This document shows, piece after piece, positions 331 to 7,204 of a DNA stretch of 21,554 nucleotides (the stretch's first letter is position 1; each line of letters starts with the position of its first letter). The stretch covers positions 1-21,554 of IMG/VR virus record IMGVR_UViG_3300025305_000173; one strand, written 5' to 3'. The translations under genes and the position numbers were made by a program. The notes under the pieces are model-generated. The model did no database searches. It was given only the letters and a program-made list of their open reading frames with translations, and was not told where the DNA came from. This DNA comes from a virus.

Positions 331-1470
331 TTATTGCTCTAACGTCATTAGTCCTGGCAAGATAGTAGATAGCTTGCGTGAACGCCTGTCCGGCTGTATT
401 TGTAATGAGTCTGTGTCGTAATCGTAAACCGTTTCCATGATGTAGAAGGTGCGGACATCATCAAGGGCTAAAGCAGCAGAAGCAGGAACTAAATCTTGAA
501 TGCGTATAACCTCTCCTGCCCTGATAAACCATTTAGGAACTTCTTCTAGCTTACCGCCCGAATCCGCTGTTGTCCTATAGACACTCCCATTGATTGAGAA
601 CGCTTGCTTTTGCCTGGGATATGCCTGTTCTGTAACGTGCATAGTGCCAGCATCCTCTGCGGGCGTTGCCCCGATTCCAGTGGGGAGGTTCCACTTTTCT
701 TCTCTCCGTGGGTACAACAACAAGCTGGCTGCATCTGTAACCGTGCTTCTCTCCGTGGTTCCTGAGAACGGCAGAATGGCATTCCTTAACTCTACTGCAG
801 ACTGGTCTAGACTCAAGTTCTGGAACGAATCAAGCCAGACATGCCAATCTATTTTCGCAACAGTTCTCTTAAATAAGTAAGGCTTTCTGTCGTCCCATAT
901 AGCAAAGAACCATACCCCATGATCTGCATCGGAAACGGCAGTTAATTCATTTATACGAGTCTGCGGATATTCATTAGTCGTGTAGTTGAGTCCAACAAAG
1001 TCTACAGTTCCTTCTGCTATATTGCTCTGGTCGCTGTTGATATCCGGACATTCCTCGGTAAGCATTTCCGCAATAATTTCATGGATAAAATGACCACTTC
1101 CTGCTGTCCAATCTGTATGGTCTGCCATACTGTAAAACTGGTCACGGCAAGCATTCCAGTACCCATAGCATACTACGGTTACGCTTTCTTCACCCATCTG
1201 GATATTTAACTGAACCTCCATAACCCGACCTTCCCAAACTAAGGTCAGGCCGTCGTGAACAGTGACACGACTAAAGTGTCTGCCCTTCTTCCCTTCCCTG
1301 GACAACCAGAGCCATGCCTCTTCTCTTCTCATAGATACATTAAACCTACAGACCTTAAAGCCCCCGTTCAGTGCTGTCGAAAATTGCAACTTACTGGCTC
1401 TATCTGTTAGGTCATCCAATAGAGTGGGAGATGTTAGGTTGCCGTCATACATCCGTATCTCAAGGGCCAT
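331..1470 (-). CDS. Tail baseplate hub / tail-associated protein (gp27/Tal-like)
   Basis: This 379-aa protein sits directly after the Dit-like gene and is the last large tail gene, the usual place of the baseplate hub. Known hubs (T4 gp27, siphophage Tal N-domains) form the trimeric ring at the tail tip that holds the tape measure end and receptor-binding parts. The sequence shows mixed beta structure with many aromatic residues and hub-like segments such as VTVHDGLTLVWEGRVMEVQL near residues 69-88, followed by a helix-containing region (HFIHEIIAEMLTEECPD). No lysozyme, peptidase or adhesin domain follows, so it looks like a minimal hub. Its start shares bases with the previous stop (TAATG). 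The fold assignment rests on position, size and general character rather than a diagnostic motif. Confidence 0.65.
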   Translation of the reverse strand: MALEIRMYDGNLTSPTLLDDLTDRASKLQFSTALNGGFKVCRFNVSMRREEAWLWLSREGKKGRHFSRVTVHDGLTLVWEGRVMEVQLNIQMGEESVTVVCYGYWNACRDQFYSMADHTDWTAGSGHFIHEIIAEMLTEECPDINSDQSNIAEGTVDFVGLNYTTNEYPQTRINELTAVSDADHGVWFFAIWDDRKPYLFKRTVAKIDWHVWLDSFQNLSLDQSAVELRNAILPFSGTTERSTVTDAASLLLYPRREEKWNLPTGIGATPAEDAGTMHVTEQAYPRQKQAFSINGSVYRTTADSGGKLEEVPKWFIRAGEVIRIQDLVPASAALALDDVRTFYIMETVYDYDTDSLQIQPDRRSRKLSTILPGLMTLEQ

Positions 1471-3467
1471 TATGCTCCCATCACTTGCAAGAACCTTGGC
1501 CTATAAGTTGGCTTTAGCGTAAACGTGTCCGCTATCGTATGACCGTCGCTGTTTTTCGCTAATATATAAATGCGAGTACCCTCTGGATGCAGTTCTGGAG
1601 AACGACCTAATTGAGACGATGGAAAGCTCTGCACTATATTAGAAGCATCAACAAGGTATAGACCCTTGGCCTTGCTGAATGAATCTAGCAGAATAACATC
1701 AGTACCACTCGTCTTTGTAGTGTAGTTACTGCCACGGTCATTCGGAAGCAAGAACACGAAATCCAGATACCAGTCCAGGTCTTGGTTAGCAGATGTCTGG
1801 TCTGTTGCTCCTCCAGTCCATCCACCAAATATCTTGAGCGTAAACGTAGCAGCAGTCATATTGTCAGGAGTATTTATAGGTGGAATCGTCACTGTTCCTA
1901 AGTCCAAAATGTTTCTGACACTGGAGTTTCCTGCCGATATTGTCTGAGCGTCCATAGCGATAAAACTGGCTGTGTCAGGGTTCGTATCATCCAACAGCGT
2001 AACGTCTCCATAGGTGTAACTCATACCCCATGTCCAAGAAGCAGCAGCATGAGTATTACCCCCACCAGAAGATTCTCCTATCCGCACTCCTGCAAGAACC
2101 CTATAAGTTCCCCTGGGAGGCGAGGCAAAATCAAAGTTAAGACGGTAGTATGTATCTGCAGCTAAATAGGTAGAAGGACTCCCGCTTACTTCTACATAAA
2201 CGTGCCTTGCTACCCCTGCACTTTCGGAGGAAGATGAACTCGTTCCGTTGACTGTGAACGTATACCCAGACTGTGCTTGGACGTTTGCTGCAGCATCGTT
2301 TGCTTCACCTTCTACCCACAAGTCATCTCCTACCTGGCTCCCATGTCTAGCACCAGACCAGAACTCTGTGTGGGCTTGTGCTTCTGTAACCAACAACTGC
2401 AACTCAGCAGGAACATCACCACCAGTATCAGCAAAGTCTATATAGTTGCAATCTGTCTGTGCAGTCTCATCATTGTGATTCCCTATGTTTCTACTGCTTG
2501 CCCACCCTGTAGGAACGGCAGAAGCTAAAACGGCAATCACGTTATCTATATAGGCAGTTCCTGTAGCATCTGCTGCTGTAGCTTCAAGGCGCAGCCTCAC
2601 AATAACCTGGGTCACGCTACCTGGTACGGTGTTATTATTGGCTGTTAGCTTAACGAATTCACTGGCATTAACGGTTGTGGTGGATACCTCAACATCTGTT
2701 CCAGTATTGTAATCCAACTCCATAACTACCTTGCAGTTGCTTAAAGCATCCACCCGAACCCAGCACTGAAACGACCAGACCTCAGCAGCATCTACATCTG
2801 TAAGAGTTTGATTGCGTTCTATAACCTGACCGCTTCCTCCTGAGTCCGTCATCACCAACTTCATAGAAGCTGCTCCACTCTTTTTGACAGTCGTGTCTCT
2901 TGTGGTCGTTCCTGTAGCTGTCTTGGTTTCTCCCCAATCTCCAAGTGCGGTTCCTGATAGTTCAAACCCTGCGTTCTGCACATAGTTCTCTATCGTTTCT
3001 TCTGCACCATAAGCAAAAGGCTTACAGACTAGGGTTAGTGAAGCCCTGGCTATCTTAGTGTTGATCCTATGCACTGGAGAGAACTCATCTCCGATAGCTA
3101 GGCTTCCATCAAGAACGTGGAAGTCTACCTGGTTGGTAGCACCTTCCCACTTCCTGCGGAGTATAACCTGACTACCTAGCCCTGTTACGCTATACTCAGC
3201 AGCCCTCTCGATTAACGAATTGATAGCATTGATATTAGCAATCAAGTTGTCTTGAGACGTTCCGCCTATAAGCAAAGTAACCTGTACTGCCCTGTTGTTA
3301 TATACCCTTTGCGTAATATCGCTCCCATGTCTGGCAAGGTTCTGACCACCAACGGCTGTTCTTCTTTGAGGCACAGGGGCCATAAACGGCATCATGGCCG
3401 TGTAGTTCGTACCATCATTAAGGTCTAAGGTTGTCGTGTCATTCTGAAACGATAAAGTCCAAGCCAT
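1470..3467 (-). CDS. Distal-tail (Dit)-like protein with carbohydrate-binding-like insert
   Basis: The 665-aa protein follows the tape measure gene by 6 bases. Residues 1-160 look like a Dit N-domain: an early strand-rich part, then RHGSDITQRVYNNRAVQVTL and a helix-forming stretch (DNLIANINAINSLIERAAEY), ending in KPFAYGAEETIE. Dit forms the hexameric ring joining tube and tip. Residues about 161-314 begin NYVQNAGFELSGTALGDWGE and end with TAYIDNVIAVL, the N..GFE..W...YIDNV layout of CBM4/9-like jelly rolls. A further beta-rich region runs from about 320 to 610, with a short Ser run at 410-415. The C-terminus (RIYILAKNSDGHTIADTFTL) may close the core. This matches 'evolved Dit' proteins that carry carbohydrate-binding modules. 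The ribosome site is weak, suggesting coupling with the tape measure stop. Confidence 0.68.
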   Translation of the reverse strand: MAWTLSFQNDTTTLDLNDGTNYTAMMPFMAPVPQRRTAVGGQNLARHGSDITQRVYNNRAVQVTLLIGGTSQDNLIANINAINSLIERAAEYSVTGLGSQVILRRKWEGATNQVDFHVLDGSLAIGDEFSPVHRINTKIARASLTLVCKPFAYGAEETIENYVQNAGFELSGTALGDWGETKTATGTTTRDTTVKKSGAASMKLVMTDSGGSGQVIERNQTLTDVDAAEVWSFQCWVRVDALSNCKVVMELDYNTGTDVEVSTTTVNASEFVKLTANNNTVPGSVTQVIVRLRLEATAADATGTAYIDNVIAVLASAVPTGWASSRNIGNHNDETAQTDCNYIDFADTGGDVPAELQLLVTEAQAHTEFWSGARHGSQVGDDLWVEGEANDAAANVQAQSGYTFTVNGTSSSSSESAGVARHVYVEVSGSPSTYLAADTYYRLNFDFASPPRGTYRVLAGVRIGESSGGGNTHAAASWTWGMSYTYGDVTLLDDTNPDTASFIAMDAQTISAGNSSVRNILDLGTVTIPPINTPDNMTAATFTLKIFGGWTGGATDQTSANQDLDWYLDFVFLLPNDRGSNYTTKTSGTDVILLDSFSKAKGLYLVDASNIVQSFPSSQLGRSPELHPEGTRIYILAKNSDGHTIADTFTLKPTYRPRFLQVMGA

Positions 3468-3473
3468 AACTCA

Positions 3474-5045
3474 CTATATTCCTTCGTAATTTTCCATATC
3501 ATCCTCGAACGTATTTCCAATGGAAAGACCTATATCTCTGCCAGCTAATTCAAGTTTCGCCTTAGTTGTTCTTGGCATTGTAACCCTGCCAAATTCATCG
3601 TTCCAAACCCCTCCAATACCTGTTGCCTTTAATTGAGTAGCAGTCCAATCACCACTCTCAGAGCGGGGGTCTGCAAATATCTTCATGGCATCGTTAAGGT
3701 TGCCATACCCGCCCCATCCTCCACTGCCTCCGCCACCGCCACCAGTAGCGATTGAAATACCTCCAGCACCACCTCCAGTTCCACCACCCATACCACCAAC
3801 GGAAGGAAGTGCAGAGGCGACAGAAGGACTTGGTGCAGTCATGTCTGGAGGGCCACCATCCCCCCAATCGGCTCCAACTGGGAGACTCCTCTTGTAGGTA
3901 TCCCATAACAACCTAGACCGATCTTCTGCGTATTGAACTCTCCTGCCAAAGTCTATATGCTTATTTCCTAATTTATCCAACGCAGTAGATAGTGTGGGTA
4001 TATGGGTTCCAGCTATGTCGTTAAATCTAGTAATCAATGAGTCGAGAGGCAGGGTCATACCTTGAAAGAAACGTCCAAAGCCATTAAGCATCCCCTTCAA
4101 CCCTGTTTCTGTTCTACCCTTTATATCAAAAAGGTTCGCATCCCATGCTTGTCCAAGTCCATACAGTGCTGCAATTAATGCACCAACTCCAACAACACCA
4201 GCAGCAGCAGCAGCAGACACACCGATGGCAGTAAGCCCAGTAAGAACCGCAGGAAAAATGACTACAAGTGCAGCAAGCCCAGCAAGAACAACAGCAAGGG
4301 CTGTGCCAAGGAGAATAAATTTACCAGCCCCTTCCACCGACTCTGGGTGCATAGTAGTTAACCCTGCAGTAACCTCTGTTAGTTTCTCTACAATAGGAAT
4401 CAATACAGGCAGAAGCCCTTCCCCAAGCGTTTCCTTCAAATCTCCCACCGCCATGTTCAATCCTATAAACGGGTCTCTATTAGCTGCTGCAGCACCCCCT
4501 ACAGCAGCAAGAACCTTAGCAAGTCTTTCTCCAAACCCAGCAGTCTTATCAAAGTTCATCCCAATACTTATCGCCTGGTTAACCTGACCAGACAATGCTC
4601 TTGTGAGAGTTCCGGATACAGTTTCAAGACTCTTACCCGATGCTGAAGCAGCATCCATAACGGCTGGCAATGCCTCCAGAGCCTTGTCTACTGAGCCAAG
4701 AATCGGAACCATTAAAGCCAATGCTCTTATCTGTTGCTCGTCTCCAAAGTTGGTCTTCCTTTGGAGCGCACTGGTCGTATCCATTATCCGTTTTTCGACA
4801 GAAGCAAAACTGATTCCTAAGTTATTTACACCTGCAGCCAGAGTAGAGACAGCCCTCCTCTGCTCCATAGCAGCAGCAACGAATGATTTGATGGCTACAG
4901 TACCAGCAACGCCTATCGCTGCAAAGGCGACACCAGCCGTTTTAGCGTGTTTGGTAAGGCTCTGTAAGCGAGTGCCAACATCCTTAAATCCACGCTCTGC
5001 TTTATCGGTATCGGCTTTTACTTTGATGATTACTTCATTTGCCAT
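3474..5045 (-). CDS. Tape measure protein (short)
   Basis: Position directly after the G/GT chaperone pair and before the Dit-like gene identifies this 523-aa protein as the tape measure, which sets tail length and is carried inside the tube. It begins with a charged region common in tape measures (KVKADTDKAERGFKDVG), then an Ala-rich hydrophobic segment at about 36-58 and a long strongly hydrophobic segment at about 243-297. A Gly-rich flexible linker lies at about 417-448, followed by a charged C-terminus. By the usual rule of about 0.15 nm per residue it predicts a short tail of roughly 80 nm. I see no peptidase or lysozyme domain. The ATG at 5045 has no good Shine-Dalgarno sequence and sits one base after the TGA of the frameshifted chaperone, so translation is probably coupled. 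Confidence 0.9.
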   Translation of the reverse strand: MANEVIIKVKADTDKAERGFKDVGTRLQSLTKHAKTAGVAFAAIGVAGTVAIKSFVAAAMEQRRAVSTLAAGVNNLGISFASVEKRIMDTTSALQRKTNFGDEQQIRALALMVPILGSVDKALEALPAVMDAASASGKSLETVSGTLTRALSGQVNQAISIGMNFDKTAGFGERLAKVLAAVGGAAAANRDPFIGLNMAVGDLKETLGEGLLPVLIPIVEKLTEVTAGLTTMHPESVEGAGKFILLGTALAVVLAGLAALVVIFPAVLTGLTAIGVSAAAAAGVVGVGALIAALYGLGQAWDANLFDIKGRTETGLKGMLNGFGRFFQGMTLPLDSLITRFNDIAGTHIPTLSTALDKLGNKHIDFGRRVQYAEDRSRLLWDTYKRSLPVGADWGDGGPPDMTAPSPSVASALPSVGGMGGGTGGGAGGISIATGGGGGGSGGWGGYGNLNDAMKIFADPRSESGDWTATQLKATGIGGVWNDEFGRVTMPRTTKAKLELAGRDIGLSIGNTFEDDMENYEGI

Positions 5046-5046
5046 A

Positions 5047-5663
5047 TCACATACTCGTTGACAGATTCGCTAGGTTTTGAGCCATAGACTGTTCTGGGCT
5101 AAGTTGCTGATGTTCTTGTGATTCGTGATCTCCTGCCAAGGTGGTCACATTATGAATCTCAAACAGTAAACTGATATCTTCCGTTAATAACTGCGACGGT
5201 AAGCAACTATACCTCTGGCATAGATTATCTATCATTCTGACTTTCATAAGTGTCCAGGGTTCCTTCACCACATTGCCGTCTTCATCTATCCCACCACCTA
5301 CGGCCCTCCACCGTTCAAGTTCTCGTCTAAAGGGGCTGGTGTTCCTACAATCGCTTGAGTCCATTGCTCAAGAATAATGTTAGCAAGGGCTATCGGAATA
5401 GAGTGCATCCCCTTGCTGTCTGCTTCTACAGGGTTCCCATCGCTATCGAGAAGGTTCCAGTTTTCTAGAACCGCCCTACCAAATAGAGCATAGACCTCCA
5501 TCTGTTTCTCGCCCTGCAACATTTCCTGTATCTCCAACCAAGTTCCAACCGAAACATCCAAACGCACCACAACCTCTGCTCCTTCATAATCTCCACTGAA
5601 GACTAGACGGGCTGTGCGCTTGGGAATACTAAAGCCGTTCACTGCTTTCTGTGTGGCTACCAT
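5047..5663 (-). CDS. Tail assembly chaperone GT fusion made by -1 frameshift (205 aa)
   Basis: This is the predicted long product of the tail chaperone pair. Ribosomes start at 5663, read 112 codons of the G frame to the CCT TTA codons at the slippery heptamer (5328-5334), slip back one base and continue in the second frame as RRELERWRAV to the TGA at 5047. That adds 93 residues, giving 205 aa. The downstream frame has no good ribosome site at its own first ATG (5364), and its N-terminal codons only make sense as overlap, both of which favour frameshifting over separate initiation. In lambda and many siphophages gpGT binds the tape measure through its T part while the G part recruits tube subunits; it is not in the virion. 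Frame arithmetic and heptamer are seen directly; use of the site is inferred. Confidence 0.85.
5298..5663 (-). CDS. Tail assembly chaperone, short form (gpG-like, 121 aa)
   Basis: The short product of the chaperone gene, ending at the zero-frame TAG at 5298, about 30 bases past the slippery site. The ATG at 5663 has an excellent ribosome site (AGGAGG, five bases before the start). The protein has a beta N-half (ARLVFSGDYEGAEVVVRLDV) and a helical second half (TWLEIQEMLQGEKQMEVYAL, then LANIILEQWTQAIVG), a layout common in gpG-type chaperones. Position between the major tail protein and tape measure is the standard one. In known systems the short form is far more abundant than the fusion and coats the tape measure before tube polymerisation. 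Confidence 0.88.
   Translation of the reverse strand: MVATQKAVNGFSIPKRTARLVFSGDYEGAEVVVRLDVSVGTWLEIQEMLQGEKQMEVYALFGRAVLENWNLLDSDGNPVEADSKGMHSIPIALANIILEQWTQAIVGTPAPLDENLNGGGP
5328..5334 (-). promoter_or_regulatory. Programmed -1 ribosomal frameshift site (CCCTTTA)
   Basis: On the minus strand the G-frame codons GCC CCT TTA contain the heptamer C CCT TTA, an exact X XXY YYZ slippery sequence. A one-base backward slip re-pairs the tRNAs on CCC TTT and enters the open second frame (AGA CGA GAA). An AGGA sequence lies about eight bases upstream and could act as a Shine-Dalgarno-like stimulator as in dnaX. I found no convincing hairpin 5-9 bases downstream; only a possible 5-bp GCCGT/ACGGC stem begins about 23 bases away. 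Confidence 0.85.
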
Positions 5664-5680: not shown

Positions 5681-6082
5681 TTATGCCCAAGTTGGTGCTG
5701 TACCGCTCTGCAATACGGCAGGAGCCGTAAAAGTTAACTCTCCTGATGACGCACGGGTTAAAGCGTAATCGGTGATGAAACACTCTGTAGGGAGCGTCTG
5801 GCCTGACATCACCAGGGTAATCGTGCGAGATGCCGTAGCACTTGCCACGGTCTTCAGTACATCATGCGACACGTTGCTTGCATCGTTGAACACCCCGTTC
5901 ATGGTGATGCTGAAGTCAGACAAGAGTAATAGTCGCTCAATAGCCGCCTTGTCTACGCCTGTTACATCTTGGACTCCCCTGGGTATTGCCCAGTCTACTG
6001 AGGTCAAGTCATTTTCGATACTCCTCGCAGACCCTCCACTATCATCCACTGCCACAGTCATTGTCGGTGCTTCCTTCGCCAT
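5681..6082 (-). CDS. Major tail / tail tube protein, short paralogue (133 aa)
   Basis: The 133-aa protein lies directly upstream of the chaperone gene, the classical place of the major tail protein. It begins with APTMTVAVDDSGG, followed by PRGVQDVTGVDKAAIERLLL and SDFSITMNGVFND, then a beta-rich C-half ending ELTFTAPAVLQSGTAPTWA. From memory, this 'DDSGG...VQDVTGVDK...ERLLLL..F...NGVFN' pattern recurs in tail proteins of diverse siphophages. It would polymerise into the hollow tail tube. The segment at residues 42-66 and the extreme C-terminus can be aligned by eye with the longer 245-aa protein two genes upstream, so both probably share the tube fold. The start has a strong AGGAGG site overlapping the previous stop codon. 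Confidence 0.72.
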   Translation of the reverse strand: MAKEAPTMTVAVDDSGGSARSIENDLTSVDWAIPRGVQDVTGVDKAAIERLLLLSDFSITMNGVFNDASNVSHDVLKTVASATASRTITLVMSGQTLPTECFITDYALTRASSGELTFTAPAVLQSGTAPTWA

Positions 6083-6084
6083 CT

Positions 6085-6486
6085 CTACCTCCTATTAGCT
6101 TTATATACTTCCTCGTTAAATTCGTCCGTCCAACGATTGTATTCCATTGCTTGACGTTCTAAATTCCCCTCATTCCTGCCATATTTATTTTTGGTGAGCC
6201 ACGGGCCACGATCTAACTTCTTTTTATGCGCTCTTGCTTGACCTTTGAAACAAGTCTGCCCTGCTTCAAAATAATAAGCAACGAGTTCCCCTTCGTCCAT
6301 ACGTTTGCAGCTAAAGTTTTTCATTACTGATATTAGATACCTATCGTTCTTACTACCCTTCTCAACCCTCGTAACCCATCCCATAAGATACTGAGGACAA
6401 TCAACCTCTCGACAGGTCGCCGTCTGCCAATGGGTGCGGCTAGGCCAGTTCGCCTCAAAGTGATTGCTATGCGTAGGCTGTAACAT
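6085..6486 (-). CDS. Cys/His-containing 133-aa tail-region protein, function unknown
   Basis: I chose the ATG at 6486 rather than the longer 6528 start because GAGGAG lies nine bases upstream and the protein then begins MLQPTHSNHFEANWPSRTHW. The gene overlaps the end of the upstream tube-like gene by 20 bases. Cysteines at 25, 30, 60 and 79 (ATCREVDCPQYL, NFSC, AGQTCF) with His residues at 6, 9 and 19 could bind a metal, but the spacing fits no standard zinc finger. The rest is basic and helical, with a C-terminal helix rich in Glu/Arg. From memory the 'TC.E.DCP.YL.GW.TRV...' start matches an unnamed family encoded between tail tube genes of actinobacterial phages. It may be a tail assembly factor; its role is unknown. 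Confidence 0.72.
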   Translation of the reverse strand: MLQPTHSNHFEANWPSRTHWQTATCREVDCPQYLMGWVTRVEKGSKNDRYLISVMKNFSCKRMDEGELVAYYFEAGQTCFKGQARAHKKKLDRGPWLTKNKYGRNEGNLERQAMEYNRWTDEFNEEVYKANRR

Positions 6487-7204
6487 CCACAGACTCTCCT
6501 CGCCTGTACATAATAACGAACTTGGCATTACTGAATGTCCCTGTTGAGGTTACCCGCAAATATCGGTTCACCGTTCCGGATGCTTCCTTGCGCTCCGCTG
6601 TTGGCTCATTACCATCAGACACCGCCGTGAAGGTTATCAGGTCTGACCAGCTGGAATTGTTAGACGAATGCTGTAACTTGATTGTCGGTGCGCCACTATT
6701 GATGTCTATTAACTGTAGATAGGCGGCAATGCCATTGCTACTAGAGGAGCTATCATCCTTGGATGAACTGCTACTGGCACTTGAATGCGTAGCCTCGGCC
6801 TGTAGCAACACCCCCCATTCAACTGGAGTCCCCTGCCCCAAGCATTGCACGTTCAGGCTCAATGCCTTGTCCTGAGACTTACTGCCGTCATAGTTGATTT
6901 GCTTAGCTACCAGCCCTGCAGCCGGACTATCAGCAGCCGTCCCCCTGCAATATAGAACCTGTACATCCGTCGTCGGCAATGGGGAGAATGCAGCGTGTTC
7001 CAGATGGGTTCCATCATCGAACCAGGATGTTACCGTTATCTCTCCATCGGCCTGTCCTTGTAGTCTAACCATAGCCGCCGAGTCTATGGTTGGGGTGTCT
7101 ATGGTAGCCCGTCTTGAACTCACCGTATCCATCGAGGTCACGTTGCCAGATAGGTCACGCCCCCCGACATATATTGCATCGCTGATTCCAGATTGCTTCG
7201 CCAT
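6467..7204 (-). CDS. Tail tube-like protein with Ser-rich linker and C-terminal beta domain (245 aa)
   Basis: This gene follows the tail terminator and starts with a good AGGAG site. Residues 1-135 form the probable tube domain (GGRDLSGNVTSMDTVSS; TIDSAAMVRLQGQADGEITV; SWFDDG; ending LSLNVQCLGQGTPVEWG). A Ser/Asp-rich linker with two runs of five serines spans about 141-156. The last 85 residues are a separate beta domain with LQHSSNNSSWSDLITF and YLRVTSTGTFSNAKFVIMYR, a pattern I remember from surface domains of phage tail and decoration proteins. The tube-like half resembles the 133-aa tail protein downstream. It may be the main tube subunit with an outward-facing domain, or a minor tube or spacer protein at the head-proximal end. 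The tail location is firm; which paralogue builds the tube is not. Confidence 0.68.
   Translation of the reverse strand: MAKQSGISDAIYVGGRDLSGNVTSMDTVSSRRATIDTPTIDSAAMVRLQGQADGEITVTSWFDDGTHLEHAAFSPLPTTDVQVLYCRGTAADSPAAGLVAKQINYDGSKSQDKALSLNVQCLGQGTPVEWGVLLQAEATHSSASSSSSKDDSSSSSNGIAAYLQLIDINSGAPTIKLQHSSNNSSWSDLITFTAVSDGNEPTAERKEASGTVNRYLRVTSTGTFSNAKFVIMYRRGESVDVTAYA

Follow-up and report, generated by a model that had tools for sequence, protein, structure and literature searches.

The tail assembly chaperones (TACs) of phage lambda follow the G/GT plan (PMC5009743), in which two overlapping frames lie between the tail tube and tape measure genes, and a −1 slip near the end of G adds T as a C-terminal extension. 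Here, we describe a locus of like arrangement in a 21,554-bp IMG/VR virus fragment (a metagenomic contig, hereafter the window), whose minus strand carries a siphophage-like structural module (portal, capsid, tail tube, and tape measure) and which had no DNA-level match among 50,697 phage records. Chaperones made by −1 frameshifting are a well-known phage mechanism, and the window is firmly supported as an additional, previously unannotated example. From its sequence and that of its relatives, the locus very probably holds a pair of tail assembly chaperone genes, the second being reached through programmed −1 ribosomal frameshifting at CCCTTTA.

Frames, putative slip site, and neighboring genes

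The features of the window that bear on this reading, all on the minus strand, are as follows.

3474..5045 (−): tape measure protein gene (PHROG 28, tail length tape measure, E = 5.9e-8)
5047..5328 (−): T domain, −1 frame, 93 codons plus stop, with no conserved start of its own
5298..5367 (−): overlap of both open frames, 70 nt
5328..5334 (−): putative slippery heptamer C_CCT_TTA (zero frame GCC CCT TTA)
5298..5663 (−): G ORF, 121 aa, ATG start, TAG stop; probable zero-frame tail assembly chaperone (gpG-like)
5681..6082 (−): 133-aa tail protein gene directly upstream of G (weak match to PHROG 10528, major tail protein, E = 0.27)
6467..7204 (−): major tail (tube) protein gene, 245 aa (PHROG 9522, major tail protein, E = 9.1e-20)

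The T frame opens after a TGA at 5370-5368 and runs to a stop at 5047. ORF coordinates bear out an earlier sequence-only reading of this DNA, which held that this frame overlaps G and is related to it by exactly −1. That reading had also placed an exact X XXY YYZ site within GCC CCT TTA, with an open frame of 93 codons after the slip and a 205-aa product, and all of this was recovered: C_CCT_TTA is the only X_XXY_YYZ site in the 70-nt overlap, lies in the zero frame at 5334-5328 of the minus strand, and a −1 slip on it leads through 93 open codons to a 205-aa fusion. By our estimate (~22 codon positions × 1/256), chance alone would place an in-frame XXXYYYZ in ~8% of such overlaps, so that the single window sequence is weak evidence and the case rests on relatives.

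Gene order runs from tail tube through the 133-aa tail protein, G, and T to tape measure, and is kept. All 41 tested loci have the 133-aa protein upstream of G; it may be a second tube protein or one related to the tube. The major tail (tube) protein gene is present in 40/41 related loci. The tape measure gene begins 1 nt past the T stop in the window and is also next to T in relatives where alignable. Three further observations concern this neighborhood. A 147-aa ORF (6085-6528, minus strand) shares 62 nt with the end of the tail tube gene and has no profile match, but its conservation in 24/41 related loci marks it as a real gene. A long glycine-rich stretch is found near the C terminus of the tape measure protein (3690-3900, minus strand). 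Past the tape measure gene, a 665-aa tail protein (1470-3467, minus strand) has a weak match to CBM_4_9 (carbohydrate-binding), and a gene in a comparable position in Streptomyces phage Dagobah is annotated as carbohydrate-binding domain-containing.

Searches of the G family against Pfam, PHROGs, and NCBIfam gave no profile match, and since no TAC profile in these databases matches, the G/T sequence family is unannotated. Membership of PHROG 344, one TAC sequence family, was considered and rejected (E = 0.29 for the window protein; no G family member [A3] matches any PHROG at 0.01). Structural comparison reached further. The top PDB match (Foldseek) of an AF2 model of G (pLDDT 88.7) was the HK97 tail assembly chaperone 2ob9 (E = 9e-3, prob 0.98; all others <0.1), a remote similarity with a TM of ~0.4 and about 20% identity. 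In VIA, 3fgx, an uncharacterised protein, ranked above 2ob9 (Z 5.7, compared with Z 4.6 over 92 residues), and both Z values fall below 8. Matches of the model in BFVD include several named tail assembly chaperones. As in the TAC G/GT class, the gene lies between those for the major tail protein and the tape measure, and its sequence signature predicts the C-terminal extension through frameshifting near the end of G that marks the class. By analogy, the place of the gene, the lambda G/GT plan, and the remote fold suggest a chaperone role for G.

Conservation of the heptamer among relatives

Relatives were collected by scanning IMG/VR with each half and with alignments, giving 44 distinct junctions that hold both halves (the window's own included); removal of G proteins >85% identical left a nonredundant set of 34. 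In every one of the 44, including relatives whose G identity is as low as about 25-35%, the phase of T relative to G is −1. The sequence-only reading had proposed conservation of the heptamer in related phages as a check, and CCCTTTA is indeed found in frame at the homologous place in 30/44 distinct and 23/34 nonredundant relatives, making it the standard slip site of the G/T family. The sites of other relatives are CCCTTTG, CCCTTTC, CCCAAAT, AAATTTA, and GGGAAAC, with GGGAAAA in Dagobah. CCCTTTA appears again in an Acidimicrobiia MAG contig, found with a subset of the 36-row T alignment, which as a whole was too diverse for genome scans; the other 197 Acidimicrobiia genomes searched gave no match. 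At one locus (L044:3288-3310), both halves are in −1 phase but only AAACCCG is present, with no convincing slippery site.

Codon usage at the site is fixed in the 23 nonredundant CCCTTTA members. Leucine is encoded by TTA in every one, compared with 3.1% of other Leu codons in G; proline is CCT in every one, compared with 16.5% of other Pro codons; and the preceding codon has C as its third base in every case, compared with 28.8% of other codons in G, while the residue that it encodes varies (A, D, V, G, I, L, S, or T). Under independence, the probability of such fixation would be ~10^-65, a figure that is in truth less extreme because the members are related and were chosen by site. The base following the heptamer is G in 22/24. 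Together, the comparison provides very strong evidence that this zero-frame X_XXY_YYZ site in the overlap, of the canonical −1 frameshift form, is conserved beyond coding need and codon preference, and far beyond chance.

Alternative explanations and proposed mechanism

An alternative hypothesis treats G and T as separate genes: T would be initiated at the ATG at 5364, or through reinitiation, and the heptamer would be incidental. The gene caller does list T with this ATG, and Dagobah is annotated with two genes. However, an ATG or GTG 54 nt before the Trp of the conserved T-domain motif (W..VGGG.D.DG...P..L) recurs in many relatives because a conserved Trp codon is preceded there by A or G, and the ATG at 5364 is likewise a by-product of the Trp101 codon (CAA TGG) rather than a real start. 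About 10 of the 34 nonredundant relatives have no ATG, GTG, or TTG ahead of the conserved T-domain Trp, and Shine-Dalgarno-like sequences for T are nearly absent among the 34. In L014/L015, the overlap is just 13 nt, and the −1 frame is open only from the slip site onward. The condition that the sequence-only reading had named as refuting, relatives with two well-initiated genes and no heptamer, was put to the test and did not overturn frameshifting: in most relatives lacking CCCTTTA a different slippery motif is present, and in several the conserved T domain is preceded by no start codon of any kind. With the heptamer also conserved beyond codon preference, we regard separate genes as very improbable. 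The model of the T domain had no fold match in the PDB (Foldseek), and in profile searches a single T member alone reached one unnamed PHROG (E = 0.0098).

Two other origins of the frame change are less probable still. In a metagenomic contig such as the window, an indel from sequencing or assembly, or gene decay, might be suspected, but both proteins recur with 100% identity on contigs from other samples, and the same phase is common to 44/44 distinct relatives in which both halves are conserved; we give this explanation almost no weight. The stretch CCCCTTT in the window could be taken to favor slippage of RNA polymerase rather than the ribosome. However, its runs of only 3-4 bases are shorter than those known to cause transcriptional slippage. 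C_CCT_TTA is placed strictly in the zero frame, and relatives carry the ribosomal motifs GGGAAAA, GGGAAAC, CCCTTTG, and C_CCT plus hairpin in its stead; both facts point to the ribosome, and polymerase slippage is extremely unlikely.

Programmed −1 ribosomal frameshifting in a tail assembly chaperone pair, as the sequence-only reading had it, is thus supported by phase in 44/44, the heptamer in 30/44, gene order, and remote fold similarity. From the frames, site, conservation, gene order, and remote fold similarity observed here, we infer slipping in cells, its rate, and chaperone action. Most ribosomes would produce the 121-aa G protein. When the Pro (CCU) and Leu (UUA) tRNAs occupy C_CCU_UUA, a minority of ribosomes would slip back by one base to CCC UUU and continue in the −1 frame, yielding a G-T fusion of 205 aa. 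On the lambda gpG/gpGT model, G may then coat the tape measure protein, with the rare T extension recruiting tail tube subunits.

Stimulators and possible turnover of the slip site

Assays in E. coli place C_CCU_UUA among the motifs that shift at >0.10% unaided, whereas the C_CCU tetramer needs a stimulator to exceed background (PMC4066793). In the window, the heptamer is preceded by AGGA at a distance of 8 nt, a spacing capable of stimulation and within the 6-17 nt range searched in that study (PMC4066793). The earlier suggestion that it acts as a stimulator found no support, as AGGA is not conserved across the family. Downstream of CCCTTTA, no RNA structure was shared among 21 members (RNAalifold), and single folds had a mean z of about −0.8. 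CCCTTTA members might have weak or lineage-specific stimulators. A G-quadruplex in the GG-rich stretch past the site is not claimed, because the RWR and VGGG codons account for the Gs.

A different arrangement is found in one clade (L048/49, L068, L070/71, L073; support 95/87), which keeps GTC CCT with other codons after it. In five distinct clade members, a hairpin of 9-11 bp starts 6-7 nt downstream of C_CCT; the region with C_CCT and the hairpin spans L048:1968-2040, with equivalents in L091, L092, L096, and L097. In a hand-gapped alignment, 9/10 stem pairs form in every member, and two pairs are changed on both sides (G-C to T-A; C-G to G-C, plus G-T). Across the family, hairpins downstream of non-CCCTTTA sites are more stable than those downstream of CCCTTTA (median −18.7 versus −12.3 kcal/mol; p = 2e-5), a contrast that persists after a shuffling correction based on few shuffles (p = 9e-4), with phylogeny and G+C content not fully removed. 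The tree needs ~9 site changes, and CCCTTTA is spread over most of it. We therefore lean toward an evolutionary rebuilding of the frameshift signal, in which one clade lost the TTTA half and would now use C_CCT boosted by a covarying hairpin, the weaker site being paid for by the stimulator. The hypothesis that structure compensates for slip-site turnover has good comparative support. With several changes of the site on a single tree, the family forms a natural experiment on the trade-off between slip-site strength and stimulator that keeps the needed protein ratio.

With these loci, an unannotated tail chaperone family is added from many metagenomic phages, one Streptomyces phage, and the Acidimicrobiia MAG contig. 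Among described systems, lambda differs in its slip site (GGGAAAG, compared with CCCTTTA here), and the phage described here lacks detectable similarity to known profiles, with a T domain that has its own W..VGGG.D motif. No phage paper was found that treats CCCTTT as slippery in the relevant sense, which is weak evidence given the small literature coverage. The same C_CCU_UUA heptamer has been proposed for −1 shifting in the capsid-polymerase frameshift of Giardiavirus, but this is a eukaryotic dsRNA virus in which the heptamer was proposed to act with a pseudoknot, a proposal disputed in PMC8230311. Both the C_CCU tetramer and the C_CCU_UUA heptamer, each found in the G/T family, were measured as shift-prone in E. 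coli, albeit in synthetic constructs with IS3/IS911 stimulators rather than in phage tail genes (PMC4066793). A further parallel is Dagobah, in which HUN42_00022/00023 (MT711977) have the same layout of G, T, and tape measure, the same T domain, and the same −1 phase, but with GGGAAAA as the site. Its two frames are annotated as unrelated hypothetical proteins, and since they are −1 related with GGGAAAA at the junction (L089:3717-4264; MT711977.1), the annotation likely misses a fusion. Dagobah thereby bears out the prediction that an ordinary gene call would overlook the joined product: gene callers split the G/T family in two, and a precise rule for joining the halves is now given.
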